DNA from: Taxillus chinensis
Taxonomy: Eukaryota; Streptophyta; Magnoliopsida; Santalales; Loranthaceae
Assembly (NCBI GenBank): GCA_023512835.1
Contig: CM042090.1
Coordinates: 55,229,865-55,293,864, forward strand
Direction of reading: 5' to 3'
DNA length: 64,000 nucleotides
Of this stretch, positions 7,269 to 61,108 are shown one piece after another; the first letter of the stretch is position 1; every line of letters begins with the position of its first letter. Under the pieces are notes generated by a model. It saw only the letters and a list, made by a program, of their open reading frames with translations, was not told the DNA's origin and ran no database searches. The position numbers were made by a program, and so were the translations under genes.

Positions 7269-9391
7269 ATGGTGCGCACAAGGAGATCAGGCAAGGAAGA
7301 AGTTCATTCATCCAGTTCTTCCAGCAGTGAGGATGGGGAGATGTTCCTGGGGCATGCTTTGGATCTAAGTGCCTTGGAGGAATCAGACCTGGGATGGTCA
7401 AGTGAGGTGGCCTTAAAGCTTCAGAATCTTGGGTTAGTGAGGTTAGTTTCAGCCAGATGTACAGTTTATTATCTTGCTTTGCATGAGTTTTACCATTCCA
7501 TTTACTTAAATGAGGAGGAGGATGCAATTCTAGGGCAGGTGCAAGGGGTGTATATTCGTATCACACCTGAGACAATTAGGAAGACCTTTAACCTTCCTGT
7601 ACCTACTGATCACTTCCCTCACCTAACCTTAGGGGAGTATGGTACTCCCTTAAATTATGCCAAACGTTTTGAGAGGAGGAGGCAGTTTACTAAAAATGGT
7701 TTTGTGGGAAAATTTAGATGTTTAGCTCATCTGGTAGGAAAGTGCTTGTTGTTGCAAACTAGTGGAAAGGATGGTGTGCCTATGACCCATCTTGAATTCA
7801 TGTATAGCATTGACCATATGTTAGATGTGGACTGGGGTGCTGCTATTTTCAATTGGTGGAAGAAAAACATGACAAAGAGGGTATATTGCAGAATGTTATG
7901 TGTTATTTTTCAGAGCCAGCATGCTCAGCATTTTGCCCATTTAGACAGCACCCCATTCCCCTCTCAATGGGTTTTGAGAGTACTGCATACTGAAGGCGGT
8001 TTGGGAGTCAGTACAAGAGGTCATTGGGCAAACAATGTTCCTCCTCCATCACAACCATCTAGGCACAGCGTTCATGTGGAGAGATCCACTGACTTTGCAC
8101 GAGACACCTCCACTTCATTGGATGAAAGGAAACAAACCCTATTCAGGCTTACTGCCATGTATATGCAATATAATGTGCACAAGGAAGATGTGTTTAACTT
8201 CTTTCAAGGTATCAGTGGCCAGGTGGTAAGTGAGGTAGAAGTTATCAATTGGGCATTTACAAATGGACATATTCGAGTGCTCGGTTGAAGAGTTAATGGT
8301 ACTTGTCTCTCAAGACCCGGATGCTACTTCTAGACCGTCACCAGGAGCATGGGAAGCCCCTAAGCTCCTGCTTACCGAATTCATCAAGCATGGAGAAAAG
8401 AAACACAAGAGCTCAGGGAGGCAAATGCTAGAACCCAACGTGAAGTTGAAGCATTAAGGAAGAATAACAAAGAAGTCAAGGGCCTCCTAGGAAAAATTTG
8501 GAAGGCCTTGAGCAAGAAGAAAGCATCCAAACACTCTCCCGTAGTGGAGATATCTGAAGAAGACTTACCTTCAGTTCATGAAGACTCTTCCCATGCCCAG
8601 GAAGACCCACCACAACCAGAAACCTCAAGGGCACGCTTATTATCCAGAAGAGGCGAGCCAGAAGCGGGCATTCCCCTTTTCAGCCCTTTATGGATCCTAA
8701 CTATTCTCAGGCTATTGTGCCTATGGCGCTTCCTGTCTCATGGGGGACATACATTCCTACTGCACCTCAAGACCTGCTCGAAGAGCCTATACATTTGACC
8801 ATAGATCCAGCCCTATCATCTGCTGAGAGTCAAGCAGCATTTGAGGACTTCATTAACTCACAGGTGTTGAGAGCTCGCTTTGCAAGGGATATGGACCTCT
8901 TCACCTCGTTTGTCCTTCAACGGATTTTAGGTGATGAATATCTATACTCAGATGAGGTGGACTTATTTTGCAGGACTATGCGTTTTGTAGTGGAGGCTGA
9001 GCCTCATAATTACCCACTGTCCCAGTATACCTCTATTATGCTGTGCGAGCTTTATGAGCAACCTTTGACTGAAAGTGTGTGGCACCAGCGTATAAATGGT
9101 CAGAATGAAGGGCACCGTCCTTGGCATGGTATGCACGAGGTGCTGATCCCTGTGCACATTGATCGTCACTATGTCTTAGTACGTGTGGATTTGAGTGCAG
9201 GGCATATGGAAATCCCTCAGCAGCCTGACCAATTTAGCTGTGGGATTTTCGTTTGCTACTATATGATGGCTATTCTACAACTGAGGGAAAACTGGGAGAT
9301 ACGCGGAGAAACCTCAGCTGATTTTGTTACTTGTGCACGTCGAATGGTGGCCAATGTTATCTACTATTACAGCTTGCCAACTGAGAGGTAA
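7269..9391 (+). pseudogene. ORF3 of element F: ULP1-like protease gene, broken
   Basis: The start is ATGGTGCGC at 7269, matching the ORF3 start in E. The N-terminal domain reads 339 codons (7269-8288), then frameshifts divide the middle (8263-8457, 8508-8798). The C-terminal protease part is open at 8690-9391. Compared with E, 48 codons are missing in frame between 9205 and 9206. The loss removes the catalytic Asp region but leaves the His (codon 9167-9169), the oxyanion Gln and the Cys (9239-9241). The SUMO-interaction-like VVEISEED and the following acidic stretch survive in the middle frame. This copy is a pseudogene. It is useful as a comparison because the protease motif residues are identical to E where present. 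Confidence 0.82.
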
Positions 9392-35370: not shown

Positions 35371-38300
35371 TCACATTTCACAGTTCACGATCCAGGGCAC
35401 ATTGCCAAACAAATCGAGTTGCACATTTCACTTAATCATGTGATCTTATCCACAGCATATACATTCACAAGAAATGCAACTAGGGCCCTAATGCCAATGC
35501 ATGCAAATCCTATCACAAGATTGGACTACCCTAAGTACACCTTGGAGGCTCAAAGAGGACCATGTTGATCAGGCATGTCCCTCCCGGCTCCTCCAAAGGA
35601 CTCAAGATAACCAAGTCCGCCCACTACCCTAGGGCCAACTAGACCATGCTCGATACCATATTGTCACGCCCCGGATTTCCAACCCGAGGAAACCGGTACG
35701 TGACTCCCCCTTTACCCACACGGAGGGCAAAGGGGTTAGGATACAAATCAAGAATTTAACATTTTAAACATTCACAACACAATCAAGAAATATAAAGTCC
35801 ATCAAAGCAGTCCACAAACCAAATCAGCTCTTTATTACAAAGTCCTCCTTTCAATCCATCCCCATTGGGGTCTACACAAAATCATAAAAAAAAATAACAT
35901 AAACAAGTAAAATTAAATAAGGTCTTCCACCTTGGGGTCCCACCTAACGCCCGTAGGTTCCTGTAAAGAAAACAACATGGTAGGAGGGGTGAGCAACCAC
36001 CATGGGAAGGGGATCATGTCTCCCCAACCCATCCCATGCACCTAACATCTACATGCCTCGTGTACAAATGCTGTGTCGTGATACAATTATTCCACCAGAT
36101 ATAGTTACAGGCTATAACAAAGAAACACAATCATACATGGATCGGTACATAAACACTCCGCGACCACGGGTTTCAAGAACAGATCCCGGCTCCACACCAC
36201 CGGGTTCCAAAAACAGTCCCTGGCTTCCACCCCACCGGGTTCCACAAAACGGTCCCAGGCTTCCACAGCCACCGGGTGTACAAGCAAACACGCAGCACAC
36301 AAGGCCATACGGGCATAACATCACACTTAATATACTTAGTCACACGGGAATAACGTCGAACACTTAGCATGCATATATTCACAAGGCTCACAAACCCAAC
36401 GCACACAGGAGTATTCCAAACACATAATACGCATAGCCTCACGGGCATTATTTCAAACACGTTCCGAGCATACACACAGGCATATTCATACAGGCATATC
36501 CACACCGACATTTTATCAAACACTTAACATGCACTAACCACCCAACCTCGGAAATCATACCAAAACGCCACCTGAAGGCCAACATTCATATAGAGATCAC
36601 ACCTATATGAATTTACATATAAATAATATAACAGATATAACTCATATTCTGCCTAGGACCCTAGGACGGGGAGGAGACTTAGGAAGAACAGAATCCCTAC
36701 CTCAAGTAAAACGCAACAACACAAAGAAAGTCCCGATCCCACGTCGAACGCCGTCCACCCACGAGTCACCGACCACCCACGGCAGAAACCAGAGCTCTCG
36801 CCTCTGGTGTGGCAAGCCCTACCCAAAGAGGCTTCTCCTCTTATGACAACATGTAAGGACCCGCCTGTGCCGGCTTTCGAGTAGAGTTTTTTGACCTAAG
36901 GTAAGTCCCAAAAGGAAAGTGCTGATGTGTCCTCTCCACGTTCGGCCAAGTGTAGGTGCCGTGATATGGGCCAATACGGCAAGGTGTGTCTTAAAGAGCA
37001 GGCTGGGGTGAGTGAGAGCGGAGCCTTTGGGCCGATGGGCCGTCGCATTTGTGTTCCCTTGTTTTCTCTAGTCTTTCCCAAAGGCCATGTGAACGTTTTT
37101 GCCTATGGCAAAGGGCCTGGTCAAACACGCGTTTGTCCTGGCCAAACGGTGGTGTAAAGGGGGTTTAGGTCTGGTCTTCCTTGTTCCCCAGAGAGAGAAG
37201 AGAGAGAGGAAGGGGGGCGGGCGTCGGGGGGGGGTGCGCGTCGTTGGAAGGGTAGCGAGGATAGGCAAGAGCCCGAGGTGGGATTTTGTTCTTCCTACTC
37301 CCCTCTGAGGCCCTTTTATAAATTAGGTGTGATCTCCTATTGGGCGTTCAGGGTGTTTGTTGTTCCGTGTTATTTGGCCCGAGGTTTTGGTTTGTTTGCC
37401 CACTATGTGTTTGTTGAAGAGGGGTGAGGGCCCGCAGTGTGGAGGCCTGCCTGTGTATTCATTGGTATGGGACCCGGTTTGGTGTGCCTGGTGGGGGGGT
37501 GTTGTAGTGAGGGGGGTTTCTCTGTTGTCGAGAGTGTATGCTGTTGGTACAGTGAGATGGAAGTTCTTTGGGTGGGGGGGGGGGGTGGGGGGGGGGGGAG
37601 GACCGTGGTGGTTGGGCCGAGGGGGGGGGGGGTGAGTCTGTCACGGTGGGTCTACCATTCCCGAGGGGGATGGCGCCCGAGAGGGGCCTCGACTCGGGTG
37701 GAAGGCGGGCGCACGATTGCGCCGTGTGGCGGGGGGGTCGGCGGGTTGTGTAAGGGTTTAGGGGGGGTATTGGGGGCTTGGCACAGCCACTCGTGGTGGA
37801 CGGGGAGGGGTGGGCGCTGGGCCCCCTTTAGGGGGGGGGGGGGGGGGGGGAGCCGGGGGGGGGGGGGGGGGTGGGGGGGGGGGGGGGGGGGGGGGGGGGA
37901 AGGCCTGAGGGGAGTTTATATTTTCCTGCTTTGTGGTGTTTTGTGGTTTGGTTTATAGGGTTTTCCCGACGGAACTTGCTTAGAAAAATGAGGTGGTGTT
38001 AAATGGGTTTGGGAGGGGAGCGCCCCCCTGCCGTGCAAGTTTGGGACAGCACCCGGGTGTGGAGGTCCTTTAAGGTGTTGCACCAACCCCTGCCCTTGGG
38101 TGCGGGCATGGGCGTTACTCCTTTAGGGAGGAGGGGGGCTGGTGGGTGAGTCCGGGTTCTGTGGGTACCGCGTTTGGGAGGTTTTCTTGGTTGGCGGCGC
38201 CCATGACGCTCTTACAAAGGGGCCTGGGGAAGGGCTCGGGAAGCCGCCGCCCTTGAGCCCCGCGGAGGGGTCGGGTGTGGGGGTCTGTTTGGGGTGGGTG

Positions 38301-38479
38301 TGAAACGCCAAGTGTTGGTCGCGACTGAGCCATGAGCAAAACCCCAACACACGAGGAGGGGGTTGATTTTTGCCCGAGTTGGCGCATTACTGTTGGGAGA
38401 GAGTGTGGTCGCCACAAAGCCACGCATAGGAGGGACCTAAATTGTTTGCGGAGGTGGGTCTTTTTTTTTTTTTGGGGGT

Positions 38480-38518
38480 GGAGTACAGGGGGGGGGGGGG
38501 GGGGGGGGGGGGGCCCGT

Positions 38519-38554
<36 letters not shown>

Positions 38555-38584
38555 TTTTGGGGGAGGGGGAAGGAGAGGTTTCCA

Positions 38585-38624
<40 letters not shown>

Positions 38625-38710
38625 GGGGGGAGGAGAATGGATGGGGGGGGGGGGGGCAGGGGGGGGGGGGGGGGTCCTCTCACGGGGCGGGGGGGGGGGG
38701 GGGGGCGGAT

Positions 38711-38746
<36 letters not shown>

Positions 38747-38760
38747 GAGGGGGGGTGTTT
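38480..38760. repeat. G-homopolymer block
   Basis: It is almost uninterrupted G for about 280 bp with few other bases. Similar blocks lie at 37574-37600, 37829-37900, 39078-39132, 39557-39595, 40468-40578, 40988-41054 and 41220-41250. They sit only inside D. Reading frames in them (poly-Gly on +, poly-Pro on -) are meaningless. Confidence 0.9.
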
Positions 38761-39009
38761 TCGGGGCGTTCCCCTTTGGTGGGGGGGTGGGGGGGGGCTC
38801 TTCCCGTTTGGGCTCCGGGAGGAAAGTGTCTGCGTTGGACGTTCGGTGGGGGAGAACGGGGTAGAGGTGTTGGGGGGGTTTTGGGGGTGACCCGTCGTGA
38901 AGGGAGAACACCGAGGGGAGGCGGGGGGGGTTGGTGGAGGGAGTAGGTGGTGAGTGGAAGTGGGAGTTTCCTGGCTTGTGGATGGTTCCTACCCCTGGGA
39001 GGAAGGGCT

Positions 39010-39880
39010 GATTTGGGTCTAGTGGGCTTGACTAAGTCAGCCCATTTCTGGCTGAGGCCGACTCTCGGCACGAGCCTTGGGGGGGGGGGGGGGGGGGGGG
39101 GGGCGGTGGGGGTTGGGGGGGGGGGGGGGGGTGTGGGGAGGTCTGGGAGCTTGGGCCGAATTGAGTCCGTTCCTCCTGAGCGTGGTCGTCCAGGGACCTC
39201 AAACATTGGAGACTGTTGAGGGCTGGTCTTGTTTTGGAGGTCATGGGCTTCCCTCCTCCGGGTTTGCCAAGGGTAGGGGGTCTTCGTTGGGTGGCGTTTG
39301 AGGCTTGTGGCCGTCCGTGTCGGTCTCCTTTGCATTTGGGGGGGGGGGGGGGGGGGGGGGGGCAGCTTTGTTAGGACCTCATTGGTCCAGGAGGCTACGG
39401 GAAAGTTCGGGTGGGAGGGGGGCAACGGCTTCTTCCGCCGCTCACGGGCCGCGGACCGTTGGAGTTGGTGGGGGACCACGTTTTTGTTTCTCCACGAAGA
39501 GGGCATAAGGTTTGGGACGGGTCCGTTGTCCCCTCGGCATTGGACCGTGAGTTTTGAGGGGGGGGGGGGGGGGGGGGGGGGCGGGGGGGGGGGGCGTTGG
39601 TTATAGGTTGGCGTTACCATCCCGTTTGATTTTTGGGCGGAGTTCATAATGTTTTCCATGTTCCCGGCTTGGAAATATCATCCAGTCCCACCCACGTGCT
39701 AGTTGGGGTCGTCTGGAGAGGTGGGTCGAGACACCCTTCGTTGTCGATAGCGCGGCATGCGGAAGCTTTCCGTGGTTCGGGTGTGGCAACACCGAGGGCT
39801 GAGGAAGAGACCCGGGAGCGTGAGACCGAGATGCGTGCTCATTATCCTGATCGTTCGAGGACGAACACTCCGGGGGGGGA
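39010..39880 (+). pseudogene. Element D pol scraps (integrase core and C-terminus)
   Basis: LTKSAHF (about 39025-39050) corresponds to VDRLTKSAHFLLV in C. HNVFHV followed by SPTHV (about 39645-39700) corresponds to HNVFHVSQLRKYHPDPTHV. EEETRERE...YPDRS (about 39800-39870) corresponds to the chromodomain end. The order and strand (+) agree with D's orientation. Confidence 0.6.
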
Positions 39881-40466
39881 GGGGGGGAGGGGGGGGCAAG
39901 CATCAAACTTCAACATAATCGGGCTGCCCTAGTGACCATGTGAGGTAAAGGTGAAGATGGAGTGTTGTGTTTTTGTCTTAGATGTGTTAGAGGCCGTGGT
40001 TGGTTGTTTCTTCTCCACCTTTTTTTTCAGGACGAAAAGTGGGGCTTGAAGGGGGGGGGGGGGGGGGGGGGGGGGTGGGGTTTTGGGGTTAGTGACCGCT
40101 TTTCGAGTATTTCAGATTGCTGAACGGGGGGGCTCAAATGAATCCGTGCAAAAGGAAAGGTAGAAGATGCCTCACCCTTCGGCCAAACGGACGGGTGAGG
40201 GCCGTGATATGGGTCCATCACGGCAAGGTGTCTAAAGAGCGCTAGTGTGGGTGGGCCTTTGGCCGGTTGGGACCGGCAATTGGCGGCTGGGTCCTTGGTT
40301 TTGACATCTAATGATCTTTCTCCTAAAGGACCGGGGGGGTGGGGGGCAGGGCTTTTGTGAGGGGGGCGTGGCAAAACTCGCGTGCCTGGGTTTACTAACA
40401 AACCGCGTTTTTGTGGGGGGTGCTATGTAAGAGGGCTGAGTTTGATTTAGGGTTCTTGTGTCTCCG

Positions 40467-40520
<54 letters not shown>

Positions 40521-40535
40521 GGGGGGGGGGGGGGG

Positions 40536-40580
<45 letters not shown>

Positions 40581-42173
40581 GGGGTGGTGGGTGGGGGGGG
40601 TAGGGGGTGACAAGAGCAGGGGGGGTGGGTTCCTAACCCCCTCGTTTAGGTTCCCTTATATGAACCATATAGGTGGTCCCTGGTGGATGGGGGTCTTGGG
40701 GGGGGGGTTTTGGTGATTACGGTGGGAGGTTTCTGGTTTGTTTATGCCTGGTGTGAAGTGGGGAGCGCCCGGTTTGGTTGAGGCCCGTTTAATTATGCTG
40801 GGGGCCGGTATGGGGTTTTGTTGGACGTGGTGGGGGTGGCTTGTTTGTTTGTTTTAAGCTTGTGAGGCGTGTGTGTGTTCGACCATGTTAGTCCTTGAGA
40901 TAAAGTGAAGGGCTTTTGGGATGGTGACTACTTTGATGTTGGGGTATGTATGCGTTGGTTGGGGGGGGGGGTCGGGGGGTGTTTGAGGGGGGGGGGGGGG
41001 GGGGGGGGGGGACGGCCTTGAGGTGGCCGGGGGGGGGGGGGGGGGGGGGGGGGGTGGGGGTTGGGGGGGACGTGGTCCGTCTCGGTGTGCACTCCGACGG
41101 TGGGCAAGTCACACCGTTCCGAGGGTAGTGGCGCCCGGGGGGAGGAGGTCGGGGGGGACTCGGGTGGATGTGCGGGTCCATGCACGCGGTGGGTCTGGCC
41201 GTGGTGGCGGGGTGTCCTGCGGGGGGGGGGGGGGGGGGGGGGGGGGGGGTCGGGGGAGAGGGGTTTTGTGGGGGTTTTTTTGCTTTAGCCTTGGCCGCAC
41301 GAGCCGACCTTGGGACGGGGGGGGTGGGCTGGGGGAGGCGGGTCCCTGCGGGTGGGGTTTGCCACCCCCATAACGATTCTTTGGGGGTTGCGGGGGTAGG
41401 TGAAGGGAGGGGGCCCCTGGGCTGAAAGTTTTATTATTTCCTGTGACTTTGGTTTTGTGTTGTTTTGGTTGGTTTTTTTGGCTTTATAGGGGTTTCCCGG
41501 GGGCTTGCCTTGTGAAAAAAATGGGGGTTGGTTGGGCATGGTTGGGAGCGGGCTGCCCCTTGCGTGGCGTGCGGTTGGGACGCCGGGAGGTCCTAAGGGC
41601 TGCACCAACCCCTTGTCCCTTCGGGTGCGGGCTGGGCGTTCTCCTTCCGGGAAGGATTAGGGCGTGACACAACACAACATCAAAACGACGTAGTTTTGAT
41701 TAAGTGAATCCCAGCATCAAAACGACGTAGTTTTGATTACACAAGTTAGCACCTTTTCGCACCCATACAGGCCAAAATACTCAGAATTTCAACATGGTCC
41801 TTTGGAGAAAGTTCCTTAGAATGTCAAAACCAAGGGAACCATGCAAAAATAAGCCTGCACGCCAATTTGCACGTGAATTCCCCAATTCACGTGCACCTCC
41901 ATATGGACTCCAAATGCTCTCAAACTTCACCCCTAGCCTCCTTGCATCATTTAGAAGATAATTACACTTGCACGTGAATTGGACCCATATCACGTGCACC
42001 TCACATACATGTCCATTTGGCCTGAAACTTCTGTGGTAGATAGAGGACACCATTCTAAGCATCTTTCCTTTTGCACGTGAATTCATTGGAGTCCATTTAC
42101 TAGGTCAAAATCTAGAAAAACTCTACTCAGGAGGCAAAACTGACTAACTCAAGGTACGGGTCCTTACATCTTG

Positions 42174-45536: not shown

Positions 45537-45541
45537 GCATG

Positions 45542-47053
45542 TGACAGACAAGATTTTTAGCCTCTCTAAAAGAGCTAGCTAATGTCGTTAAATCTCTCTT
45601 CAAAATAATAAATTCCCTAAGTTTGCACTAAAAGAATAGCAGCAAGAAAGGGGTCGAACCCACAGGGATTAACCTAGTTCTCTAGTTCTCAAATCAAATC
45701 ACCCAATTACTCTTGTTCTATAAAATGTCTTGGCAAAAAGTTTTCTTTTTTAAACTAAAGATCTAATTTTTATGTGATTTTCTGAATAAACAAAGAAAGT
45801 AAACTGATTTTAGGATTAAGTTTCAAGGATTAAAAGCATTTAGGGTCACAATTTCACCTCCTTATGTTATCTCTACTGGTTCATGGTATTAGGGTTGTCT
45901 GATTGAAAACATGCTAAACATAAGCCAAGGACAACAAATGGTCATTGAGGTCCTTTTAAGAGTTGTATGCCAGAATGTTCATCTAAACACACAAACATGC
46001 AAAGCCAATAAATCATACTTGCAAAAGGATAATGATCACACCAATTACAAATAAGTTATGAATCTCAATCCGCCCCAGACTAGGGCTAAGAATACCAAGG
46101 TGTACATCCAAAGATAGAACTTAAGAACAGATTCATAAAACATGCAAAACTTCAATCATCCAAACCCAATATTCATAAACACAAAGAAAGCAACAAGGGG
46201 GCTACATTGCTCCCCTAGATTAAAAGAACTACTCACGCATGATTACAAGCAAAACCATAGCAGAAAAGCTAAACATCTTCTTCTTGATCACACGCACAGC
46301 AAAGCTTCAAATCCAAGCTCCAAAATCCGCGACGGCTGCTGCGACGGCTGCTCTCCTAGGTCAAGGAGCACCTCCAAGTCGTGGAGCCTCTCTCTCTCTC
46401 TAAAAACGTGTAGGGGGGTTTTGCATAGATAGCAGAGGCGTGGAGGCTTGTATTTATAGAGTTTGGATGGGCTTTGAGGTGTGTAACCTAGCCCACTTAT
46501 CAAAACGGCGTAGTTTTGATAAGTAACACTCGAAACATTAAAAACTCTATCTTCCATCCACAATTTGGACTTGGGCCTTCAGGAACAAATGATCAGCATG
46601 GAAAAACGATTGGATCGGTCCAAAAATATCTCTGCACGCCAATTTGCACGTGATATGGTGAATTCACGTGCACCTCCAAATCAGCTCAAACTTCTCCCCA
46701 AGCTTCCTTGCATCATGTAGAGGCCTGAGAGGCAAAAATAGGCTTGCACGTGAATTGGGTGAATTCACGTGCAGATCCAAATCAGCTCCAAATGCTCTGA
46801 AATTTCTGTGGTAGGTAGAGGACATCATTCCAAGCAACTTTGCTTCTTGCACGCCAATTGTTTGAGGCCATCTACTATGTCAAAAGTGAGGTCCAAAACC
46901 TGCCAAAACAGCTTAAAAACGCATGTATTTGCAACTAGCATCTTCCTAGGGGTTAGAGCAAATATATATGAAATATGAAGCAATAAGGCTCTAATCATGC
47001 TCTTAAACATCCTACATAAACACTATAATAATGGCATAAAATGCACGTTATCA
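45542..47053 (-). repeat. 3' LTR of element E
   Basis: It is 1512 bp, TGACAGACAAGA to CACGTTATCA on +. On the coding strand it carries CACGTG-AATT repeats (46630-46860), one dyad (about 46499-46520), TATA (about 46450-46458, TATAAATAC) and a GA tract. The array includes the near-perfect inverted repeat GCACGTGAATT-n5-AATTCACGTGC (46745-46771). Confidence 0.92.
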
Positions 47054-48608: not shown

Positions 48609-50924
48609 TTACCCCTGGTTTGGTACACTGTAATAGTAGATGACATTGGCCACCATTCGTCGCACCTGAGCCACAAAGTCAGCCGACGTCTCGCCGCGCA
48701 CTTCCCAATTTTCCTTCCCTTGCAGAATACCCATCATGTAGTAGCAAACAAAGATCCCACAGCTGAATTGGTCAGGCTGTTGGGGAATTTGCATTTCATG
48801 GTAGTGAATAAGAGGGAGCTTGTCCGCCAACAAGCCTTCTTTGATCATTGCCACTTTCATGCGTTTGATGAACCCATGCACTAACTGTCTTTTCCGTCTA
48901 GCAAACCCTTCGCCTTGGCTTGGATCATATAGCACAGCATGGCCTACATCCAGATTCACACGGACAAGTACATAGTGGCGGTCAATGTGCACCGGAATCA
49001 GCACCTCATGCATACCATGCCAAGGGCGGTGCCCTTCATTCTCTCCATTAATGCGTTGGCGCCACACCTCTTCGGACAAGGGTTGATTGAAAAGCTCACA
49101 CAGCATGATGGAAGTGTACCCAGCTAAGGGGTAATTATGAGGCTCAGCCTCCACTACATACCGCATGGTCCGGCAGAAGAGGTCTATCTCGTCGGCATAG
49201 AGATATTCATTCTCTGAGATCCTCTTCAAGCTAAAAGGAGTGAAGATATCATTATCCCGTATAAATCGAGCCCTATGACCTGTGGAATTGATGAATTCTT
49301 CAAATGCTGCTTGGCTCTCTTCAGACGATAAAGCTGGATTAATGATTAAATGAACAGGAGGGCCAAGTAGATCTTCAGGTTCAGCAGGCATGTATGCACC
49401 CCAAGATACTGGAAGTATAGTAGGCACCAGGGCCTGAGAATATGCAGGATCTGTAAAAGGCTGGAAGGGTGAATACCCTGCTGCTGGCTCTGCCTCCTCT
49501 TGAGGTTGATAGTAAGATGGCTGAGCTGAAGGTTCTGGTTGAGGTGGATCTGCCTGGGCTGGATAAGCATCTTCAGGGGATGGAGAGGGTTCTTCATCAG
49601 ATATCTCCACTATAGGAGAACGTTTTGAGGCTTTCCTCTTGCTCAAAGCCTTCCAGATTTTGCCTAGGAGGCCCTTGACTTCTTTATTGTCCTTCTTTAG
49701 GGCTTCCACCTCGCGCTGGGTTCTGGCATTGGCCTCCCTGAGCTGCTGTGTTTCTTGCCTCCAAGCTTCGATAGATGCAGCAGGAGGAGCTTCTGGGGCC
49801 TCCCATGCTCTAGGTGATGCATGAGCAGCTACATCTGGGGCCTCCCATGCTCTGGTTCTAGGTTGTGAAGTAGCTTGTTGGTCTCCAGAGATGAGTGCCA
49901 TTAATTCTTCAAATTGGGCATTAGTGATGTGCCCATTAGTGACTGCCCAATTGATGACCTCCACTTCACTCACCACCTGCCCACTAATGCCTTGAAAGAA
50001 ATTGAAAATGTCTTCTTTGTGTACATTGAACTGCATGTACATGGCAGTGAGTCGGTATAGAGTCTGCTTCCTTTGATCCAAATGAGGAGAGGTCTCCCTT
50101 GCAAAGTCTGTGGATCGCTCCACATGAACACTGTGCCTAGCGGGCTGTGATGGAGGAGGAACATTGGTTGCCCAATGGCCTCTGGTACTGACCCCCAAAC
50201 CTCCTTCAGCTTGCAATACTCTTAACACCCAGTGAGAAGGAAAAGTAATGCTCTCCATGGAGGAAAATTGCAAAGCAGGCATGCTTTGAAATATCACACA
50301 CAAAATTCTGCCATTGATCTGCTTGGATGAGTTTTTCTTCCACCAGTTAAAAATGGTAGTGGCCCAATCCACATTTAGCATATGATCAATGCTATACATG
50401 AACTCCAGGTGTGGCTTAGGCACACTATCTAGCCCACTGGTCTGAATCAATAAGCATTTCCCTACCAGGTAAGCTAGGCATCTAAATTTTCCAACAAAAC
50501 CATTCTTGGTATACTGCCTTCGACTTTGAAATTTTCTAGCATAGTTACATGCAGTACCAAATTCTCCTAGGCTTAGCTGAGGGAAACTATTACTGGGTTC
50601 AGGGAGGTTAAAGCAATTTCTAATAATATCAGGGGTTATTCTGACATAAACCCCTTGCACAACCCCTATCAGTTCATCCTCATTCCCAGAGACAGATGCA
50701 TAGAAGTCTTGTAAGGCAGAATAGGAAATAGCTGGCTGGGCAGATACTAACCTTTGTAATCCCAGAGTTTGAATTTTAACAGCCACCTCTCTAGCCCAGC
50801 CCAGCTCTGAAGCCTCCAAAGCCTGTATATCAAGAGCATGCCCCAAGAGTATCTCCTCCTCAGTTTGGCTATCAGCACTAGGTGAGTGCACCTCCTCCTG
50901 GCCAGTCCTCCTTGTGCGCACCAT
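48609..50924 (-). CDS. ORF3: 771-aa protein with C-terminal ULP1/SENP-like cysteine protease
   Basis: A continuous 771-codon frame starts with ATG at 50924. Residues 1-335 form a domain I cannot name; its blocks TKNGFVGKFRCLAYLVGKCL and FMYSIDHMLNVDW are conserved in F. A coiled coil (about 384-430), a basic cluster (KRKASKR, 429-435), a SUMO-interaction-like IVEISDEE (438-445) and a Pro/Glu-rich linker follow. Residues 520-771 match clan CE (C48) peptidases: His650 (RHYVLV), Asp667 (LYDPS), Gln716 and Cys722 (PQQPDQFSCGIF). The His-Asp spacing is 17 and Gln-Cys 6, as in SENP/Ulp1. Such enzymes cleave SUMO or related modifiers. There is no signal peptide or membrane segment, so an envelope role is unlikely. 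It could act on SUMO conjugates or on the element's own proteins; that is inference. Confidence 0.8.
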   Translation of the reverse strand: MVRTRRTGQEEVHSPSADSQTEEEILLGHALDIQALEASELGWAREVAVKIQTLGLQRLVSAQPAISYSALQDFYASVSGNEDELIGVVQGVYVRITPDIIRNCFNLPEPSNSFPQLSLGEFGTACNYARKFQSRRQYTKNGFVGKFRCLAYLVGKCLLIQTSGLDSVPKPHLEFMYSIDHMLNVDWATTIFNWWKKNSSKQINGRILCVIFQSMPALQFSSMESITFPSHWVLRVLQAEGGLGVSTRGHWATNVPPPSQPARHSVHVERSTDFARETSPHLDQRKQTLYRLTAMYMQFNVHKEDIFNFFQGISGQVVSEVEVINWAVTNGHITNAQFEELMALISGDQQATSQPRTRAWEAPDVAAHASPRAWEAPEAPPAASIEAWRQETQQLREANARTQREVEALKKDNKEVKGLLGKIWKALSKRKASKRSPIVEISDEEPSPSPEDAYPAQADPPQPEPSAQPSYYQPQEEAEPAAGYSPFQPFTDPAYSQALVPTILPVSWGAYMPAEPEDLLGPPVHLIINPALSSEESQAAFEEFINSTGHRARFIRDNDIFTPFSLKRISENEYLYADEIDLFCRTMRYVVEAEPHNYPLAGYTSIMLCELFNQPLSEEVWRQRINGENEGHRPWHGMHEVLIPVHIDRHYVLVRVNLDVGHAVLYDPSQGEGFARRKRQLVHGFIKRMKVAMIKEGLLADKLPLIHYHEMQIPQQPDQFSCGIFVCYYMMGILQGKENWEVRGETSADFVAQVRRMVANVIYYYSVPNQG

Positions 50925-51772: not shown

Positions 51773-52978
51773 TCAAGCAATGGTGAAAGAGAGGGAATCA
51801 ACTATCTCCCTCTGAGTTGAATCAAAGTAAGGTTTCAGCCTATTGCCATTCACCCAAAATTTCTTGCCATCTACAGCTTGGAGCTCAAAGCTCCCATATG
51901 GCTTCTTATCAACTATCACAAAAGGTCCCATCCACTTGGACCTTAATTTGCCAGGAAATAACATCAACCTTGTGTTAAATAGAAGAACTTTCTGTCCTAA
52001 GGTTAAAGGTTCATTGTTGAGTTGCCTATCATGCCATTTCTTAGTTCTTTCTTTGTAAAATTTAGCACTATCATAGGCATCCAACCTAAGCTCATCTAAC
52101 TCAATTAATTGAGTCATCCTAAGTTCCTTGATCTCTTGTGGGTTGAAATTTAACTTCTTCAAGGCCCAATGAGCCTTGTGTTCAAGTTCCACAGGCAAGT
52201 GACATGCCTTACCATATAGAATACGGTAAGGTGACATCCCAATGGGAGTCTTGTAAGCTGTCCTATATGCCCATAAGGCTTCATCAAGCCTTTGAGACCA
52301 ATCTTTCCTATTGGCTCCAACAGTTTTCTCTAAAATGGCCTTAATCTCCTTGTTGGACACTTCTGCTTGTCCATTAGCTTGTGGGTGGTAAGCTAAAGAC
52401 TTCCTATGAGTGACACCATACTTGTTCAATAATTTATCAAACAATTTATTGCAGAAATGACTACCCTCATCACTGATTATAGCCCTTGGTGTCCCAAAAC
52501 GGCTAAAGATGTTCCTAGTAAGGAAGTGAGTCACAACCATAGCATCATTCACTCTAGTAGGAATAGCTTCTACCCACTTAGACACATAATCCATAGCAAG
52601 CAAAATGTATGAATACCCATCAGAATTGGGGAAGGGCCCCATGAAGTCAATGCCCCAAATGTCAAAAATTTCAACTGGAAGAATTCCAGTTAATGGCATC
52701 TCATTTTTCCTAGATAGACCACCTACCCTTTGACATCTATCACACTTTTTGATGTAGACATAGGTGTCTTTTACCATGTGAGGCCAATAAAAGCCACACT
52801 GCATGATCTTAGCCACAGTTCTTTGCACCCCAAAGTGGCCCCCATAATGTGATGCATGACAATGATGTATTATGTCATCTACCTCCTCCTCAAGGACACA
52901 CTTTCTTATGATTTGGTCTGGACACCTCCTATAAAGAATTGGGTCTTCCCAAATGTATTTCCTAGCATCCACTACCAA
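51773..52978 (-). CDS. Athila integrase (E), intact 401-aa frame
   Basis: The frame opens at a TTG codon and has no ATG of its own, because it is the 3' part of the gag-pol polyprotein. The zinc finger HHCC is complete (His44, His48, Cys79, Cys82). The catalytic residues are Asp111 (WGIDFMGPF), Asp170 (ISDEGSHF) and Glu206 (ANGQAEVSN), with DD35E spacing. The C-terminal DNA-binding region ([17 protein letters not shown]) is present and ends at 51773. No chromodomain is seen, as expected for Athila. A one-base difference near 52980 puts it out of phase with RNase H. It is the best-preserved enzyme part of the window. Confidence 0.9.
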
Positions 52979-54422
52979 TTTCTTTCTCCTGGTGGTAGTC
53001 TAACCGTTTGGGTATGAACCCAGGTGGCTAAATAATTTGCTATGTCAACAAACCAAGGAAGATGATGCACCTCAAACAACTTCTCATCAGGAAAGTCATC
53101 TACAATGGGTAGAGACTTAGGTGCATTCTCCACACGGGAGAGGTGATCAGCCACGGAATTTAGGGCTCCCTTTGTGTCTCTAATTTCAAGGTCAAATTCT
53201 GTAAGAGGAGAACCCATCTAATCAAGCGTGGCTTAGCTTCTTTTTTAGCAAACAAATATTTCAACGCAGCATGATCAGTATAAACAATTACTTTAGACCC
53301 CAAAAGGTAGGGTCTAAACTTGTTGCACCATAAACCACAGCTAAGAACTCTTTCTCGGTGGTGGTATAGTTCCGTTGAGCATCATCTAAGGTCTTACTAG
53401 CATAGTAAATGACCCTAAACACCTTTTCTCGCCTTTGCCCTCGGACTACCCCCACAAAGATAATCACTCGCATCGCACATTAGCTCAAAAGGTTGAGCCC
53501 AGTCGGGTGTGACTATAACAGGTGCGATGACTAACTTACCCTTGAGGATGTTAAAAGCCTCTAAGCAATCTTCATTAAACTCAAAGCTTGTGTCTTTTTC
53601 TAACAACCTACTCATGGGTTTTGCAATTTTTGAGAAGTCCTTAATGAATCTCCTATAAAAGCCAGCATGGCCAAGGAAACTTCTCACTCCTTTTTCATTA
53701 GTTGGAGGTGGCAGAGTCTCAATAGTGGAGATTTTTGCCTTGTCTACCTCCAAACCATGTGCAGACACCCCGTGCCCTAGAACTATCCCCTCGGTTACCA
53801 TGAAATGGCATTTCTCCCAATTTAGGACTAGTTCCTTCTCCTCACATCTCTCTAAGACCACATCTAGATTTTTCAAGCACCGTTGGTAGGAGGAACCAAA
53901 CACCGAGAAGTCATCCATGAAGACCTCCATGATCTCCTCAACCAAACCCTGAAAAATAGCCATCATACACCTTTGAAAGGTGGCAGGGGCATTACAAAGC
54001 CCAAATGGCATTCTCCTAAATGCAAATGTGCCAAAAGGGCACGTGAAGGTGGTCTTTTCTTGGTCCTCGGGCTTAACCATGATCTGATTATACCCGGAAT
54101 AGCCATCTAAAAAGCAGTAGTGACTATAGCCAGCTAACCTATCCAACATTTGGTCAATGAAAGGAAGAGGAAAATGATCCTTCCTAGTGGCCTTGTTCAG
54201 CTTCCTATAGTCAACACACACTCTCCACCCCGTCACGGTGCGAGATGGGATCAATTCATTTTTCTCATTCTTAATCACAATCATGCCCCCTTTCTTGGGC
54301 ACAACATGCAATGGACTCACCCACTCACTATCGAAGTAGCATAAATTATACCCGCATTTTTCCATTTTAAAATTTCTTTTCTAACAACTTCTTTCATAGC
54401 AGGGTTTAATCTTCTTTGTCTT
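52979..54422 (-). pseudogene. Athila RT and RNase H (E), frameshifted
   Basis: RT is in the minus-strand frame 53415-54365, with [46 protein letters not shown] and active site FMDD (about 53910-53921). RNase H is divided over two further frames (53288-53473, with ASKTLDDAQ; 52972-53217, with [21 protein letters not shown]). Differences from F are single-base insertions near 53450, 53310, 53200 and 54400. All RT motifs are present, so the copy may have been damaged only lately. Confidence 0.87.
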
Positions 54423-55889
54423 TCAACAGATGGGTTTAAAATCATCATTCATCAAAATCTTATGCATGCAAATCCCTGGACTAATACCCCTAATGTCTTC
54501 AATGTTCCATCCTAGGGCCTTTTTGTGTTTCCTAAGGACTTCTAACAATTGAGTACACTCCACATCATTCAAATTAGAAGCAACAATGACAGGGAATTGA
54601 TTTGTAGAGTCTAGAAATTCATACCTTAGGTGTCCAGGCAGCTCCTTCAGTTCTGGAGCTGGATGCACGTCATCTTCTTTCTCCTCCTCAGCTTGCTCCA
54701 AAGAGTTTGTAGTTTGCTCATCTTTCTCAGCCGTCAAGTACATCTCTTCATCTTGTTGAGCTTCTATAAGCTGAAGGGCTTCATCATTGGTGGTGGTAAT
54801 TTCTTCTGCCAAGTAATCTTCCACCAATTCCTCAAGGTCTTCAACCCAAAGGCAATCCTCCTCCTCATGACCTTGCAGAGCCTTCCCCATGTGGAAGACT
54901 AAGGTCTCCTCATTAATTCTCAGAGTAAGCTGCCCTTGAGCAACATCAATCAATGCACAACCCGTTCTGAGAAACAGTCTTCCAAGGAGTAGCTGAACTC
55001 CTCTATCTTCTTCCATCTCCAAAACAACAAAATCCGCTGGAAATATGAAGGAGCCCACTTTAACTAGCACATCTTCAATGATTCCTTCAGGTCTTCCAGT
55101 GGACCGGTCTGCGAACTGCAATGATATGGAAGTGGGCTTCATGCCCTTAAGCCCAAGCTGCTTGTACAAAGCAAAGGAAATCAAATTGATGCTGGCCCCT
55201 AAATCACATAGGGCCTGCTGCTGCGGTGCATTGCCAATCACACAAGGGAGATTAAAGCTGCCCGGATCTTTATGCTTGATGGGCAAACTCGTTGAACAAC
55301 ACTTGCTCACCTCGTTAGTGACTGCCACCGTCTCATGATCCCCATATTTCCTCTTCTTTGTCACAAAATCTTTGATGTATTTTCTGTACCTAGGCATCTG
55401 CTCCAAAACTTCCACAAATGGAATGTTAATCTCAAGCTTCTTGAACAAACTCAGGAAGCGCTCATACTCTTCTTCAACCCTCTGGTTCCTCAGCCTCTGA
55501 GGAAATGGCATAGTAGGCCTGAGCTCTTGCCTTTGTTCTTCAGCTATTCTGTCTTGACTCAGCTGCTTGTCCTTCTTCTCTTGCACTCTTTCTTCAGCTT
55601 TATCTGATTTTCCTTGGTCATCAGCTTCCAAGGGTCTGCTTTGTTCTTCTGGAATTGCCTTCTTCTTAGGCTCTTCAGCTTCATTCAGTGTCTTCCCGCT
55701 CCTTAGAGTTATAGCCTTGCAACTCTCCTTGGGGTTCACCTCAGTGTCACTTGGAAAAGTATTGGTTGACACCCCTTGATTTACATTCTGAGCCAAACTC
55801 ACAAGCAGCTTTTCTATATTCTTCATTGAAGATTCCATGGTGACTACCCTTTCCTCCAAACTATCCTCTCTTTTGGTTGGCTCATCCAC
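54423..55889 (-). pseudogene. Athila gag C-terminus and protease (E)
   Basis: This is a 488-codon open piece in the minus strand, parallel to F 920-2233 and beyond. The protease motif CDLGASINLISF is at about 55180-55215, and the LLGRLFL second motif has Pro changed to Leu (F: LLGRPFL). It runs through the linker that is interrupted by a stop in F, and ends at a one-base insertion (TGTTGA) near 54430 just before RT. Confidence 0.85.
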
Positions 55890-57191
55890 ATTCTGATATA
55901 CCCTTCCTCTTTGCTGTTGCGGCTGAGGCTGTTTCGCTCGAATCCTGGAGGTGGGTGTAAATAATTATCCGTAGCATACGGATTCGCTTCATCCCCGGGG
56001 GCACATATTTGTACTGAAATGAGGTATCTCCCCCTCGGTTCTGAGTTCTCCGAAATGGTTGAGATTGCTGCTGATTCTGGTTGTACCCTAGCTATTGTTG
56101 TTGAGGATAAAATTTCCTTTCTGGTACAAGCCCTTTCCTCCAACATAATTTGCTTCTTCAAGCTCCACTCCAGCCCGCTCAACTACCGGTAAAGCTTGTG
56201 ATCCTTCAACTTTAAAAGCCAATACTTCCATGCCTTTCACTAAAGCTTGAATCCGTGCTTGCACATCATTGGAAGAATTTTCAACTGAAGCAATCTTCTC
56301 CCTTGGCTTTGAAGTACGCACATTAGACCACTGCCAATCAGCTAATGACAACCTCTCCAAGAGCTCTGCTGCTGCGTCAGGCTCTAGATTCATCAAGCAT
56401 CCTCCAGCAGCTGCATTCACCTTGTCTTGTGAATGGGACTGAAGACCTGTGTAGAAAGATTCAATTTGAATCCACTGGGGCCTTCCATGATCAGGGCATC
56501 TTCTCACTAAGTCTTTGAAACGCTCCCAAGCTTCATGAAGAGTCTCCATCTCATCTTGCCTGAACCTGCTAATCTCTCCTCTTAGCTGGATCACCTTGGA
56601 AGGAGGGAAGTACTTTGACATGAACTTGGTCTCGCATCTCCTCCCAAGTGTTGATTGAACCTGTTGGCAGACTGTTGAACCAGCCAAGAGCTCTATCCCT
56701 TAAAGAGAAAGGGAAAAGCCTTAGCTTTATGGCCTCCTCCGACACATTGTTGATCTTGATGGTGTCACACACCTGGTAGAACCTCATCATATGCTGGTGT
56801 GGATCATCCACGGCTGTTCCTCCAAACGCGTTGTTGCTCACCATGTTGATCAATGCCGGCTTCAGCTCGAAGCTATTCGCTTGGACTCTTGTCTGCCAAA
56901 TCCCCAGAATAATGGTCCGACATCATCGGCCTCGCATAATCTAAGAAGGTTCGGGGCATAAACCTATTACCCTCTTCTTCTGGATATTGGCCATTGTAAT
57001 TGGCCCCTCCTTGCGGTGCACCACCATCAGGTCCGAGATCTGCCATCAGATCGCCTACGGATTGCTCTAAGCCTTGCAATGCTTCTTCAGCCTCACGTGC
57101 TGCTTCCCTAGCTGCTCTACGCCGAGCTCTGAACAACCTTTCAGGTTCCCGAGTAAATTGTATATCCTCCTCTCTTTGCATGCACAACTAG
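55890..57191 (-). pseudogene. Athila gag N-terminus (E), frameshifted
   Basis: The probable start is ATG at 57181 (complement), about 190 bp after the PBS, followed by an Arg/Ala/Glu-rich helix (RAARREAAREAEE type). Gag is then read in at least three frames: 56873-57187, 56569-56853 (with LRLFPFSLRDRALGWFNSLP, the capsid hallmark of Athila and related gypsy elements) and 56088-56687 (with FPPSKVIQLRGEISRFRQ). The C-terminal part is Gln/Asn-rich, as in F. Confidence 0.82.
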
Positions 57192-57370: not shown

Positions 57371-57388
57371 TCCCCGGCAACGGCGCCA
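57371..57388 (-). other. Primer-binding site, Asp tRNA (E)
   Basis: TCCCCGGCAACGGCGCCA on + is the reverse complement of TGGCGCCGTTGCCGGGGA, which pairs with the 3' end of plant Asp tRNA. Athila elements characteristically use this primer. It lies three bases from the 5' LTR. Confidence 0.9.
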
Positions 57389-57391
57389 ATT

Positions 57392-58895
57392 TGACAGACA
57401 AGATTTTTAGCCTCTCTAAAAGAGCTAGCTAATGTCGTTAAATCTCTCTTCAAAATAATAAATTCCCTAAGTTTGCACTAAAAGAATAGCAGCAAGAAAG
57501 GGGTCGAACCCACAGGGATTAACCTAGTTCTCTAGTTCTCAAATCAAATCACCCAATTACTCTTGTTCTATAAAATGTCTTGGCAAAAAGTTTTCTTTTC
57601 TAAACTAAAGATCTAATTTTTATGTGATTTTCTGAATAAACAAAGAAAGTAAACTGATTTTAGGATTAAGTTTCAAGGATTAAAAGCATTTAGGGTCACA
57701 ATTTCACCTCCTTATGTTATCTCTACTGGTTCATGGTATTAGGGTTGTCTGATTGAAAACATGCTAAACATAAGCCAAGGACAACAAATGGTCATTGAGG
57801 TCCTTTTAAGAGTTGTATGCCAGAATGTTCATCTAAACACACAAACATGCAAAGCCAATAAATCATACTTGCAAAAGGATAATGATCACACCAATTACAA
57901 ATAAGTTATGAATCTCAATCCGCCCCAGACTAGGGCTAAGAATACCAAGGTGTACATCCAAAGATAGAACTTAAGAACAGATTCATAAAACATGCAAAAC
58001 TTCAATCATCCAAACCCAATATTCATAAACACAGCAAAGCAACAAGGGGGCTACATTGCTCCCCTAGATTAAAAGAACTACTCACGCATGATTACAAGCA
58101 AAACCATAGCAGAAAAGCTAAACATCTTCTTCTTGATCACACGCACAGCAAAGCTTCAAATCCAAGCTCCAAAATCCGCGACGGCTGCTGCGACGGCTGC
58201 TCTCCTAGGTCAAGGAGCACCTCCAAGTCGTGGAGCCTCTCTCTCTCTCTAAAAACATGTAGGGGGTTTTGCATAGATAGCAGAGGCGTGGAGGCTTGTA
58301 TTTATAGAGTTTGGATGGGCTTTGAGGTGTGTAACCTAGCCCACTTATCAAAACGGCGTAGTTTTGATAAGTAACACTCGAAACATTAAAAACTCTATCT
58401 TCCATCCACAATTTGGACTTGGGCCTTCAGGAACAAATGATCAGCATGGAAAAACGATTGGATCGGTCCAAAAATATCTCTGCACGCCAATTTGCACGTG
58501 ATATGGTGAATTCACGTGCACCTCCAAATCAGCTCAAACTTCTCCCCAAGCTTCCTTGCATCATGTAGAGGCCTGAGAGGCAAAAATAGGCTTGCACGTG
58601 AATTGGGTGAATTCACGTGCAGATCCAAATCAGCTCCAAATGCTCTGAAATTTCTGTGGTAGGTAGAGGACATCATTCCAAGCAACTTTGCTTCTTGCAC
58701 GCCAATTGTTTGAGGCAATCTACTATGTCAAAAGTGAGGTCCAAAACCTGCCAAAACAAAACGCATGTATTTGCAACTAGCATCTTCCTAGGGGTTAGAG
58801 CAAATATATATGAAATATGAGGCAATAAGGCTCTAATCATGCTCTTAAACATCCTACATAAACACTAGAATAACGGCATAAAATGCACGTTATCA
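57392..58895 (-). repeat. 5' LTR of element E
   Basis: It is 1504 bp and nearly identical to 45542-47053; differences include an 8-base gap (AGCTTAAA region) near 58757 and a handful of substitutions. The array, dyad and TATA positions are as in the 3' LTR. Confidence 0.93.
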
Positions 58896-58900
58896 GCATG

Positions 58901-59338
58901 GTTGTGGACGATGTGCCTCAGCATGTGCATTATGGAAAGTGTATTGTCTTTTCGAGGATGACACGTCCTATGGAGGAAATATGGAAACGCGAATCCATGA
59001 TGCGTGAGCAACCCCCCCGAGTTGTTCGAGGACGAACAATCTTAAGGGTGGAGGGGTGGCTGTTGGCTGGTGTATTTGTATTTCCTTTCGACTTTTGACT
59101 TTTATTTATATTGAATGTGTTAATGAAATGTGCTTGTGATGGATATTTGTAACATGTGGCTGTGTTTCCATAGATTGTGATGCATGTGGTTATGGACTGT
59201 GGTGGCACTATGTTATATGCTATTGTGTGCAATGTGCGGTGTATGACCCATTTGGGTGTTGTGGCTCGTCGTGTGGCAAATGGGTAGCTTGTGTTTGTTT
59301 TCCTCGTATGTCATTTCTTTTCGAGGACGAAAAGTCTT
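58901..59338 (+). pseudogene. Element A pol C-terminal remnant and 3' UTR
   Basis: At about 58970-59043 the frame reads MEEIWKRESMMREQ and then, with a shift, ELFEDEQS and a stop. This corresponds to the chromodomain end of C (IEEETWERESVMREQ...LFEGEQS). TTGTTCGAGGACGAACAA is a perfect inverted repeat at the stop. The remaining 300 bp are noncoding and match the C 3' UTR. It is the only clear pol matter in A. Confidence 0.7.
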
Positions 59339-59351
59339 AAGGGGGAGAGGA
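59316..59351 (+). other. Polypurine tract and inverted repeat of A
   Basis: CTTTTCGAGGACGAAAAG, an inverted repeat, is followed by TCTTAAGGGGGAGAGGA, which abuts TGTAAGG of the 3' LTR. AAGGGGGAGAGGA is the likely plus-strand primer. The same pair occurs antisense in C (30110-30143) and, degraded, in B (about 21008-21040). Confidence 0.85.
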
Positions 59352-61108
59352 TGTAAGGACCCGTACCTTGAGTTAGTCAGTTTTGCCTCCTGAGTAGAGT
59401 TTTTCTAGATTTTGACCTAGTAAATGGACTCCAATGAATTCACGTGCAAAAGGAAAGATGCTTAGAATGATGTCCTCTATCTACCACAGAAGTTTCAGGC
59501 CAAATGGACATGTATGTGAGGTGCACGTGATATGGGTCCAATTCACGTGCAAGTGTGGTTGTCTTCTAAATGATGCAAGGAGGCTAGGGGTGAAGTTTGA
59601 GAGCATTTGGAGTTCATATGGAGTTGCACGTGAATTGGGAATTCACGTTCAAATTGGCGTGCAGGCATATTTTTGCATGGTTCCCTTGGTTTCGACATTC
59701 TAATGAACTTTCTCCAAAGGACCATGTTGAAATTCTGAATATTTTGGTGTGTATGGATGTGGAAAGGTCTTAGCTTGTTCCACCAAAACTACGTCGTTTT
59801 GATGCTGTGATTCACTTAATCAAAACTACGTCGTTTTGATGTTGTGTTGTCTATATAAGGAGGAGAAGCCCTCTGTTTTAGGTTTAGAGTTCTCTTCAGC
59901 GGCATCGGCCGTCGTGAGAGAGAGAGAGCTAGAGAGAGAGAAGGAAGGGGAGTTGCTGGTTCTTCCTGGGAGCATCTTGCGTGGGGAGGACGGCGTTTAG
60001 CGCGGGAGCAAGGAAGATCTGTTTTAAGGTAGGGATTCTTGTTCTTCCTAAATCCTCCTCTGGTCCTAGGGTCCTAGGACGGAATATGGGTTATAACTGT
60101 TATATTATTTATATGTAAATTCATATAGGTGTGACCTCCTATATGAATGTTGGCCTTCAATGGCGATTTTGGTGTTTCGGTGTTTGGGTGATGCATGAAA
60201 AGTGTTTGATAAAATGCCTGTATGACATGCCCGCTACATGTTTGATGAAATGCCTGTGTGAACTTAGCTGTGTGTGTGTATGCCCATTATGCGTTTGGTA
60301 ATATGTCCGGGTGACTGGACTTGTGGTTTAGTGTATGTATGTATGCTGGATGTGTGTTCTGTTGCCTGAATGGCTGGGTTTGTGCACTTGTGAACGGGTG
60401 CACACCAAGTGGTTGGTTTTATGTTTGTGTGACTGGTGTACATTGTGTGCATGACTGTGGTATCTGGCCTGAAGAGGCGGTTAAATTACTTTGCCTGAGA
60501 GGCGGTTAAATCACTTGGCCTGAAGAGGCGGTTAAATCACTTGGCCTGAAGAGGCGGTTAAATCACTTGGCCTGAAGAGGCGGTTAAATCACTTGTGGAT
60601 AAAGTGTTAGCCTGTGGCAGTGGAAGGTTGTAATTGTTGATGTGGTTTTTATTATGTTTGTTGAAATTATTGTAACACAACACTGCACTTGTACACATGG
60701 CATGTAGATGCTAGGAACATGGGATGGGTTGGGGAGACATGATCCCTACTGAGCTGTGGTTGCTCACCCCTCCTACTGTGTTTGTTTGTTTTCCAGGGGC
60801 TTACAGGCGTTAGGTGGAAACACCAAGGTGGAAGACCCTCTCCACTTTATTGTTCTTTTCAGTAATGTACTTTTATGATTTATGTAACCCCAGGGAGGGG
60901 AATGTACTAAGGGATTGAACTGTAATCAGGGACTTGGTTGTTTTGTGAACCTTTGATTTGGAATTAAATAAAGATGTGGCTTATTTGATTTATTGTAATT
61001 GTTAGACTTGCTTGTGTGGCATCCAGTAATCCAACCCCATTGCCCTCCGTGTGGGTGAATGGGGAGTCACGTACCGGTTTCCTCGGGTTGGAAATCCGGG
61101 GCGTGACA
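59352..61108 (+). repeat. 3' LTR of element A
   Basis: It is 1757 bp and nearly identical to 16824-18607, with five instead of six 26-bp units at about 60475-60594. The TSD CTGAT follows at 61109-61113. Confidence 0.93.

Follow-up and report, generated by a model that had tools for sequence, protein, structure and literature searches.

The window analysed here, a 64,000-nucleotide stretch of contig CM042090.1 of Taxillus chinensis, held a 13.4-kb LTR element (element E) on the minus strand, in which a third open reading frame (ORF3) sat between the integrase and the 3' LTR. A second element (F), collinear with E, was located on the plus strand at about positions 837-11778. The features of both were as follows:

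58896..58900 (other copy 45537-45541), no strand: target site duplication CATGC, in the flanks of element E
57392..58895, minus strand: 5' LTR of element E, from LTR comparison
57371..57388, minus strand: primer binding site TGGCGCCGTTGCCGGGGA, read from the sequence, three bases inside the 5' LTR of E
54426..55964, minus strand: gag/protease open piece of E, 513 codons, collinear with element F
53415..54365, minus strand: reverse transcriptase frame of E (PF00078)
51773..52978, minus strand: integrase frame of E (PF00665 and PF17921)
48609..50924, minus strand: ORF3 of E, 771 codons, with N-terminal domain, linker and C48 protease domain (open frame, Pfam)
50120..50924, minus strand: N-terminal domain of ORF3, residues 1-268, with a sub-threshold match to PF20167 (Transposase_32)
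49590..49613, minus strand: SUMO-interaction-motif (SIM)-like IVEISDEE, residues 438-445 of ORF3, preceded by a basic cluster
48612..49358, minus strand: C-terminal region of ORF3, residues 523-771, containing the C48 domain (Pfam core residues 641-741)
45542..47053, minus strand: 3' LTR of element E, from LTR comparison
7269..9385, plus strand: broken ORF3 of element F, with stops, a frame change and 48 codons including the catalytic Asp gone

The two LTRs of E differed by 8 substitutions over 1,504 aligned sites (K2P 0.0053, a divergence of 0.5%), with 8 gap columns. At the substitution rates used for LTR dating (1.3e-8 or 7e-9 per site per year), the LTR divergence corresponded to an insertion age of approximately 0.2-0.4 million years, showing that E is a young insertion. 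Its primer binding site, TGGCGCCGTTGCCGGGGA, is presumably of the tRNA-Asp type. Reverse transcriptase (RT) and integrase were both upstream of ORF3, in gypsy order, and the Athila features of LTRs with a target duplication and RT before integrase were present; the names Athila and Sirevirus-like as used here refer to element structure, not to RT trees. The position of ORF3 between LTRs, after RT and integrase, was not that of a gene in Mutator-like (KI-MULE/VANC) elements, which have a MuDR-type transposase and neither LTRs nor RT. ORF3 was open throughout, and gag-pol of E was found in separate open pieces of 203, 513, 321 and 408 codons. This split, because of which the copy is probably not autonomous as such, counts against the main explanation of ORF3 given below. 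Elsewhere in the window, positions 37500-41000 consisted of long G runs with short interrupting motifs (GC up to 65%, GC skew 0.47), which may reflect either an assembly fault or a true low-complexity array. Another repeat family was represented by pieces up to 99% alike, some in one orientation and some in the other, at 16824-18607, 28370-30272, 35467-36781, 41669-42170 and 59185-61108; they are seemingly parts of other inserted elements.

The sequence-only reading that preceded this analysis had described a 771-codon frame downstream of integrase, placed it as the third ORF of an Athila-like element and assigned it to the Ulp1/SENP peptidases. The open frame was recovered at 50924-48609 after gypsy-type gag, RT and integrase, and the assignment held, as PF02902 (Peptidase_C48) matched residues 641-741 with an E value of 1.2e-10 and 42.1 bits (cut-off 20.7). 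His650, Asp667, Gln716 and Cys722, the residues it had named, were all verified by script; their order and spacing were those of C48, and they aligned with SENP1. When ORF3 was searched as a single sequence against solved structures, SENP1 was matched weakly (E 0.02). A profile built from 20 retroelement C48 domains matched SENP1, SENP5 and SENP2 at 2.5e-11, 7e-8 and 9e-8, respectively, followed by yeast Ulp1 (7e-7) and SENP7 (2e-5). The residue after the catalytic His was Tyr or Phe in E-, L015- and L005-like rows and Trp in copia rows and SENP1; in SENPs, this residue helps to clamp the Gly-Gly tail. A structure model of residues 523-771, made from an alignment of two rows only, reached a pLDDT of only 36.7, too low to support a fold. 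ORF3 very likely encodes an active C48-type protease.

The same 20-domain profile also matched the Chlamydia proteins Dub1/Dub2 at approximately 3e-5 to 4e-5, and because these deubiquitinases/deneddylases match too, the modifier recognised by the retroelement C48 domain is not fixed by the profile. An isopeptidase that acts on ubiquitin, NEDD8 or a different ubiquitin-like protein, shielding element proteins from degradation, would agree with the Chlamydia matches; however, SENP1, SENP5, SENP2 and Ulp1 scored better and ORF3 contains a SIM-like motif, so we consider this alternative unlikely. The C48 domain might also serve in maturation, cutting Gag, Pol or ORF3 of its own element, with no action on SUMO. 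Such a role is suggested by an element type that forms particles and encodes a protease domain, by a modifier specificity that is not readable from the present data, and by the adenovirus protease, a maturation enzyme of the same clan. Nevertheless, gypsy pol already has its own aspartic protease, SENPs were the nearest solved structures by profile, and the SIM-like motif beside the basic cluster would have no evident use in a maturation enzyme, which makes this role improbable. Among the modifiers, SUMO is probably the main substrate of the ORF3 protease.

The N-terminal domain of E matched PF20167 with 24.8 bits, under the cut-off of 45. No NCBIfam family matched ORF3. A search of a presumably plant-poor protein database returned no hit at E ≤ 1e-5 among the 7,993 candidates sharing most words with ORF3, and none of the 8 stretches of viral contigs that fitted a pattern encoded a relative.

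The IVEISDEE that had been proposed as SUMO-interaction-like beside a basic cluster was present at residues 438-445 of E, preceded by KALSKRKASKRSP, and is a candidate SIM by sequence pattern. This pattern, which was picked for the shuffle test after the motif had been seen, arose by chance in 5.9% of 20,000 whole-protein shuffles and in 0.4% of the same number of shuffles of the linker (residues 346-480). When five K/R in the preceding 12 residues were added to the pattern, the rate was 0.015% of 20,000 whole-protein shuffles. After the basic cluster, E had IVEISDEE, F, L040 and L041 had VVEISEED (its retention in F had been pointed out from the sequence and was found again), L042 had IVEIFDKE and L048 had VVEICDDD. 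The hydrophobic core was retained in all six family copies, and four of them also had the complete pattern with its three acidic/Ser residues. Of 26 other C48 frames, nine had VISDSDD or IISDSDD after GRKRAHRTT (or a variant), each of them L010-type copia, and chance is less likely for the motif because a like arrangement occurs in two element classes. SIM patterns were absent in the remaining 17 frames (L015, L003, L006 and L014 included), some of which stop before the linker; this absence counts against the main explanation.

Comparison of E with F showed that the two ORF3s were more diverged than gag-pol and the region after ORF3. DNA identity was 87.6% in gag-pol, 76% in an 888-column ORF3 piece and 82-87% in the region after ORF3, and the whole ORF3s were just 63-64% identical. 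The surviving protease blocks of F, described earlier as identical to those of E, were indeed so, both the block HRPWHGMHEVLIPVHIDRHYVL and those around His and Cys, but ORF3 of F is broken, and a 48-codon deletion equivalent to E residues 663-710 removed D667, so that F as it stands is without one catalytic residue. Neither the damage to F nor the low overall identity had been mentioned in the sequence-only reading. The E-F dS was 1.2 in ORF3 versus 0.42-0.58 in gag-protease, RT and integrase. With this higher dS, the ORF3s of E and F seem to have separated earlier than their pols, which would fit an exchange of the third ORF by recombination. Purifying selection and exchange by recombination have both been reported for the env of Arabidopsis Athila (PMC2410132, in part). 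A further copy, L042 (G000:C4:19777200-19779000), had a mosaic ORF3, in part E-like and in part F-like, and its SIM tail was altered; its nucleotide identity was 0.91-0.97 to E over codons 281-490 and 0.94 to F over codons 561-700, and after codon 700 it was nearer E again (0.90 vs 0.82 to F).

The source genome (521 Mb) was searched with PF02902, which gave 4,308 first-look candidates. The 150 that were scored and listed all matched, so the genome holds at least 150 matches. Thirty-seven of these 150 places (L001-L028 and L040-L048) were examined in a non-random choice of the 8 best-scoring, 20 taken mostly for long open frames and 9 taken for variety; 36 were akin to ORF3 of E or to the ORF of the L010 type, by protein match or DNA similarity. 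The exception, L001 (G000:C191, a small contig of 208,818 bases), was the best C48 match of this genome search; it was Ser- and acid-rich, unlike the retroelement ORFs, and may be either a host gene or a contaminant.

L015 belonged to a second gypsy element type, which shared 71% identity with E in RT and 52-59% in integrase, and its 661-codon ORF was placed after gypsy pol and laid out like ORF3 of E. The L010-type ORF, of 997 codons, was located downstream of a copia gag-pol with RVT_2, copia gag and copia integrase parts. L029 and L030, on the gag-pol side, matched PF07727, PF14223 and PF13976, which are Ty1/copia gag and pol families. Copia pol matches preceded the ORF in L031/L012, L038/L006 and L039/L023 as well; the C48 domains of the last two were 21% and 19% identical, respectively, to that of L010. 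A nested insertion of the ORF into a copia element was rejected, because L029 and L030 were 94% alike over 6.9 kb, L010 and L011 (the ORF side) were 91% alike over 5.4 kb, all four were on the same strand, and the other three locus pairs showed copia pol before the ORF too. The C48 ORF is not peculiar to Athila, and the copia carriers had been missed by the sequence-only reading. As applied to these copia relatives, 'Sirevirus-like' refers only to their copia pol and third ORF.

When the gypsy and copia ORFs were compared by hhalign, the N-terminal domains aligned with a probability of 99.9 (E 4.8e-32, 225 columns, 24% identity). The C48 domains aligned with a probability of 99.7 (E 6.3e-26, 225 columns, 21% identity), the gypsy side including L005, L026 and L027, which were assigned by ORF similarity. 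A crosswise control of the gypsy N-terminal domain against the copia C48 domain gave a probability of only 0.2%, and false homology from composition was rejected. The best Pfam match of six N-terminal domain pieces was PF20167, at 12.9-35.5 bits and below the cut-off in every case; it was not among the Pfam matches of the whole L010 protein at E ≤ 0.1. These alignments indicate that the third ORFs of Ty3/gypsy and Ty1/copia elements here form, judged by sequence, a single family with two domains, the last of which is a ULP/SENP-type protease. In the stretches examined, the ORFs of L003, L005, L007, L026 and L027 (757-1440) had no recognisable pol of their own element beside them; L036, upstream of L026, had only distant RT and integrase matches, and the gag match in L037 was on the opposite strand. 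At L027, an E-like (757-1440) and a copia-type (2631-5597) C48 ORF were observed within 5 kb. In a C48 tree of 20 rows, in which the labels of L005, L026, L027 (757-1440) and several L010-type rows came from ORF/DNA similarity and not from adjoining pol, a single gypsy clade was neither rejected (p-AU 0.225) nor established, so the tree settles neither the number nor the direction of gypsy-copia exchanges.

With E as the reference, the catalytic residues were compared in 19 rows, made up of E, F and 17 further loci. H650 was present in all 19, D667 in 18 (deleted in F), Q716 in 18 (Ile in L002) and C722 in 18 (Tyr in L027); 8 of the 19 rows were damaged between residues 520 and 771, by one or more stops or, for F, by the deletion. 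Four further E-family copies (L040, L041, L042 and L048) retained all four residues, as did 11 of 11 L010-type copia rows, while L023 (680-1534) ended before the Cys. The catalytic residues were kept across element classes at about 20-26% identity; the sampling favours rows that have the motif, because the loci were taken from the list of C48 matches. This retention bears on the view of ORF3 as an envelope-like or cell-to-cell movement protein in which the protease fold is incidental. The highest Kyte-Doolittle 19-residue mean in ORF3 of E was 1.35, against a usual transmembrane cut-off of 1.6, showing no transmembrane-like segment of the retroviral-envelope kind. Such a protein is suggested by the position of ORF3 after pol and by usage in the literature (PMC7264820, in part), but with the catalytic residues kept and no transmembrane-like segment we regard it as very improbable.

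The E-F dN/dS was 0.17 for the whole ORF3 (bootstrap 0.13-0.22), with 0.19 in the N-terminal domain, 0.33 in linker residues 346-480 and 0.11 in residues 601-771 (bootstrap 95% 0.05-0.21). Values in the other genes were 0.13 (gag-protease), 0.07 (RT) and 0.18 (integrase); all are Nei-Gojobori estimates, which are imprecise where dS exceeds 1. The sequence-only reading had named two outcomes as contrary to its proposal, a missing C48 match together with a fold lacking the triad, and a dN/dS near 1 across the family. Neither was obtained: the C48 match was significant, and the estimate of 0.11 for residues 601-771 was joined by 0.10-0.37 over residues 520-771 in all 15 pairs of E, F, L040, L041, L042 and L048. 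In the L010 copia family, C48 pairs with dS > 0.8 (L014, L017, L025, L007, L027 and L023) gave 0.11-0.17. Twelve closer pairs of that family gave 0.15-0.60, and values in the N-terminal domain went up to 0.82, as would be expected from decay of copies after insertion. ORF3 is under purifying selection, like gag and integrase. A functionless fragment of a captured host ULP gene, carried as a passenger, would be in keeping with the broken state of F and several other copies; however, it is contradicted by the dN/dS of the 15 family pairs and the deep copia pairs, and catalytic residues kept across element classes, at loci found by a C48 search, also speak against it. We hold this origin to be extremely unlikely.

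Our main explanation, which as a whole we favour by a small measure, is that ORF3 of E is an accessory intracellular isopeptidase of an Athila-like Ty3/gypsy element. The protein would consist of an N-terminal domain common to other LTR-element third ORFs here, a linker with the basic cluster and SIM-like motif, and the C48 domain, and it would act inside the cell, not as an envelope. It may be made from a separate or spliced mRNA and be taken into the nucleus by the basic cluster, where the SIM-like motif could tether it to chromatin complexes, or to Gag/integrase, that bear SUMO. The protease would then strip SUMO from silencing factors or from proteins of the element itself, with the predicted outcome that host silencing is weakened or the element's own proteins are freed. 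That the host silencing machinery is the main target is a tentative suggestion and rather doubtful. The wider proposal is that plant copia and gypsy 'envelope-like' genes, at least here, are one family that moved between superfamilies and encodes a nuclear, SUMO-targeted, anti-silencing isopeptidase; we give it somewhat less than an even chance.

Work on other hosts bears on this role in both directions. Yeast Ty1 RNA rises when SUMO conjugation is lost (Ubc9, or Siz1 with Siz2), and an ulp1 mutant likewise derepresses Ty1 (PMC8585004, in part); because loss of Ulp1 has this effect too, the direction in which SUMO acts on Ty1 is not simple. Silencing in Arabidopsis involves MOM1 and the SUMO-ligase-like PIAL2, and a section heading in the same paper states that silencing does not need the MOM1-SUMO interaction (PMC6084981, in part), which counts against the main explanation. 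For KIU-carrying Vandals, which are ULP-bearing Mutator-like elements, it was reported that they cause related copies to lose methylation (PMC13317346, in part). With the same two-domain ORF, a complete protease and purifying selection in both superfamilies, the function of third ORFs becomes testable. If ORF3 is a deSUMOylase, LTR and Mutator-like elements would both be armed with the same type of enzyme, and SUMO would be a front line between plants and transposons. If the anti-silencing reading is true, the supposed plant envelope would be an anti-silencing enzyme.

The third ORFs of plant LTR elements were called unknown in origin and function (PMC3414828, in part). Those of Athila and Sirevirus are also treated in PMC6317226 and PMC7264820, and those of the Retand lineage in PMC11963269 (all in part). 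Of the extra ORFs, 21.4% resembled various CDD domains (PMC6317226), and only two of the env-like proteins appeared homologous (PMC1142308, in part). In beet, the gypsy group Elbe is env-like and the family Cotzilla belongs to the SIRE clade (PMC4881148, in part). In the accessible parts of the open-access literature, no report was found that places a ULP/C48 domain in the third ORF of Athila or of Sirevirus elements.

The Athila third ORF ('env', 3' aORF) has the same position and orientation as ORF3 of E, and that of sunflower Athila has a Transposase_32 match (PMC11728184, in part); unlike ORF3 of E, it is described without mention of a protease domain in the portions of the literature available. 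The Sirevirus ENV-like gene, like the ORF of the L010 type, follows pol as the third ORF of a copia element, and the accessible part of its description mentions neither a protease nor kinship with Athila ORF3 (PMC3414828). In bdelloid rotifer LTR elements, the same enzymatic ORF3 types are common to unrelated retroelement classes (PMC5408684, in part); those are GDSL esterases and DEDDy exonucleases of animals, whereas ORF3 of E would be a SUMO-type protease. Ginger1 transposons carry Ulp1 (PF02902) or OTU domains (PMC2836005, in part) and are, like E, Ulp1-bearing mobile elements, but they are animal cut-and-paste DNA transposons with the domain inside the transposase. In Kaonashi/KIU, of the VANC-class Mutator-like transposons, a Ulp1-type domain is likewise encoded by a gene of a plant transposon. 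Compared by description only, they are DNA transposons, whereas E is an LTR retrotransposon with gag-pol and an N-terminal domain weakly matching PF20167.
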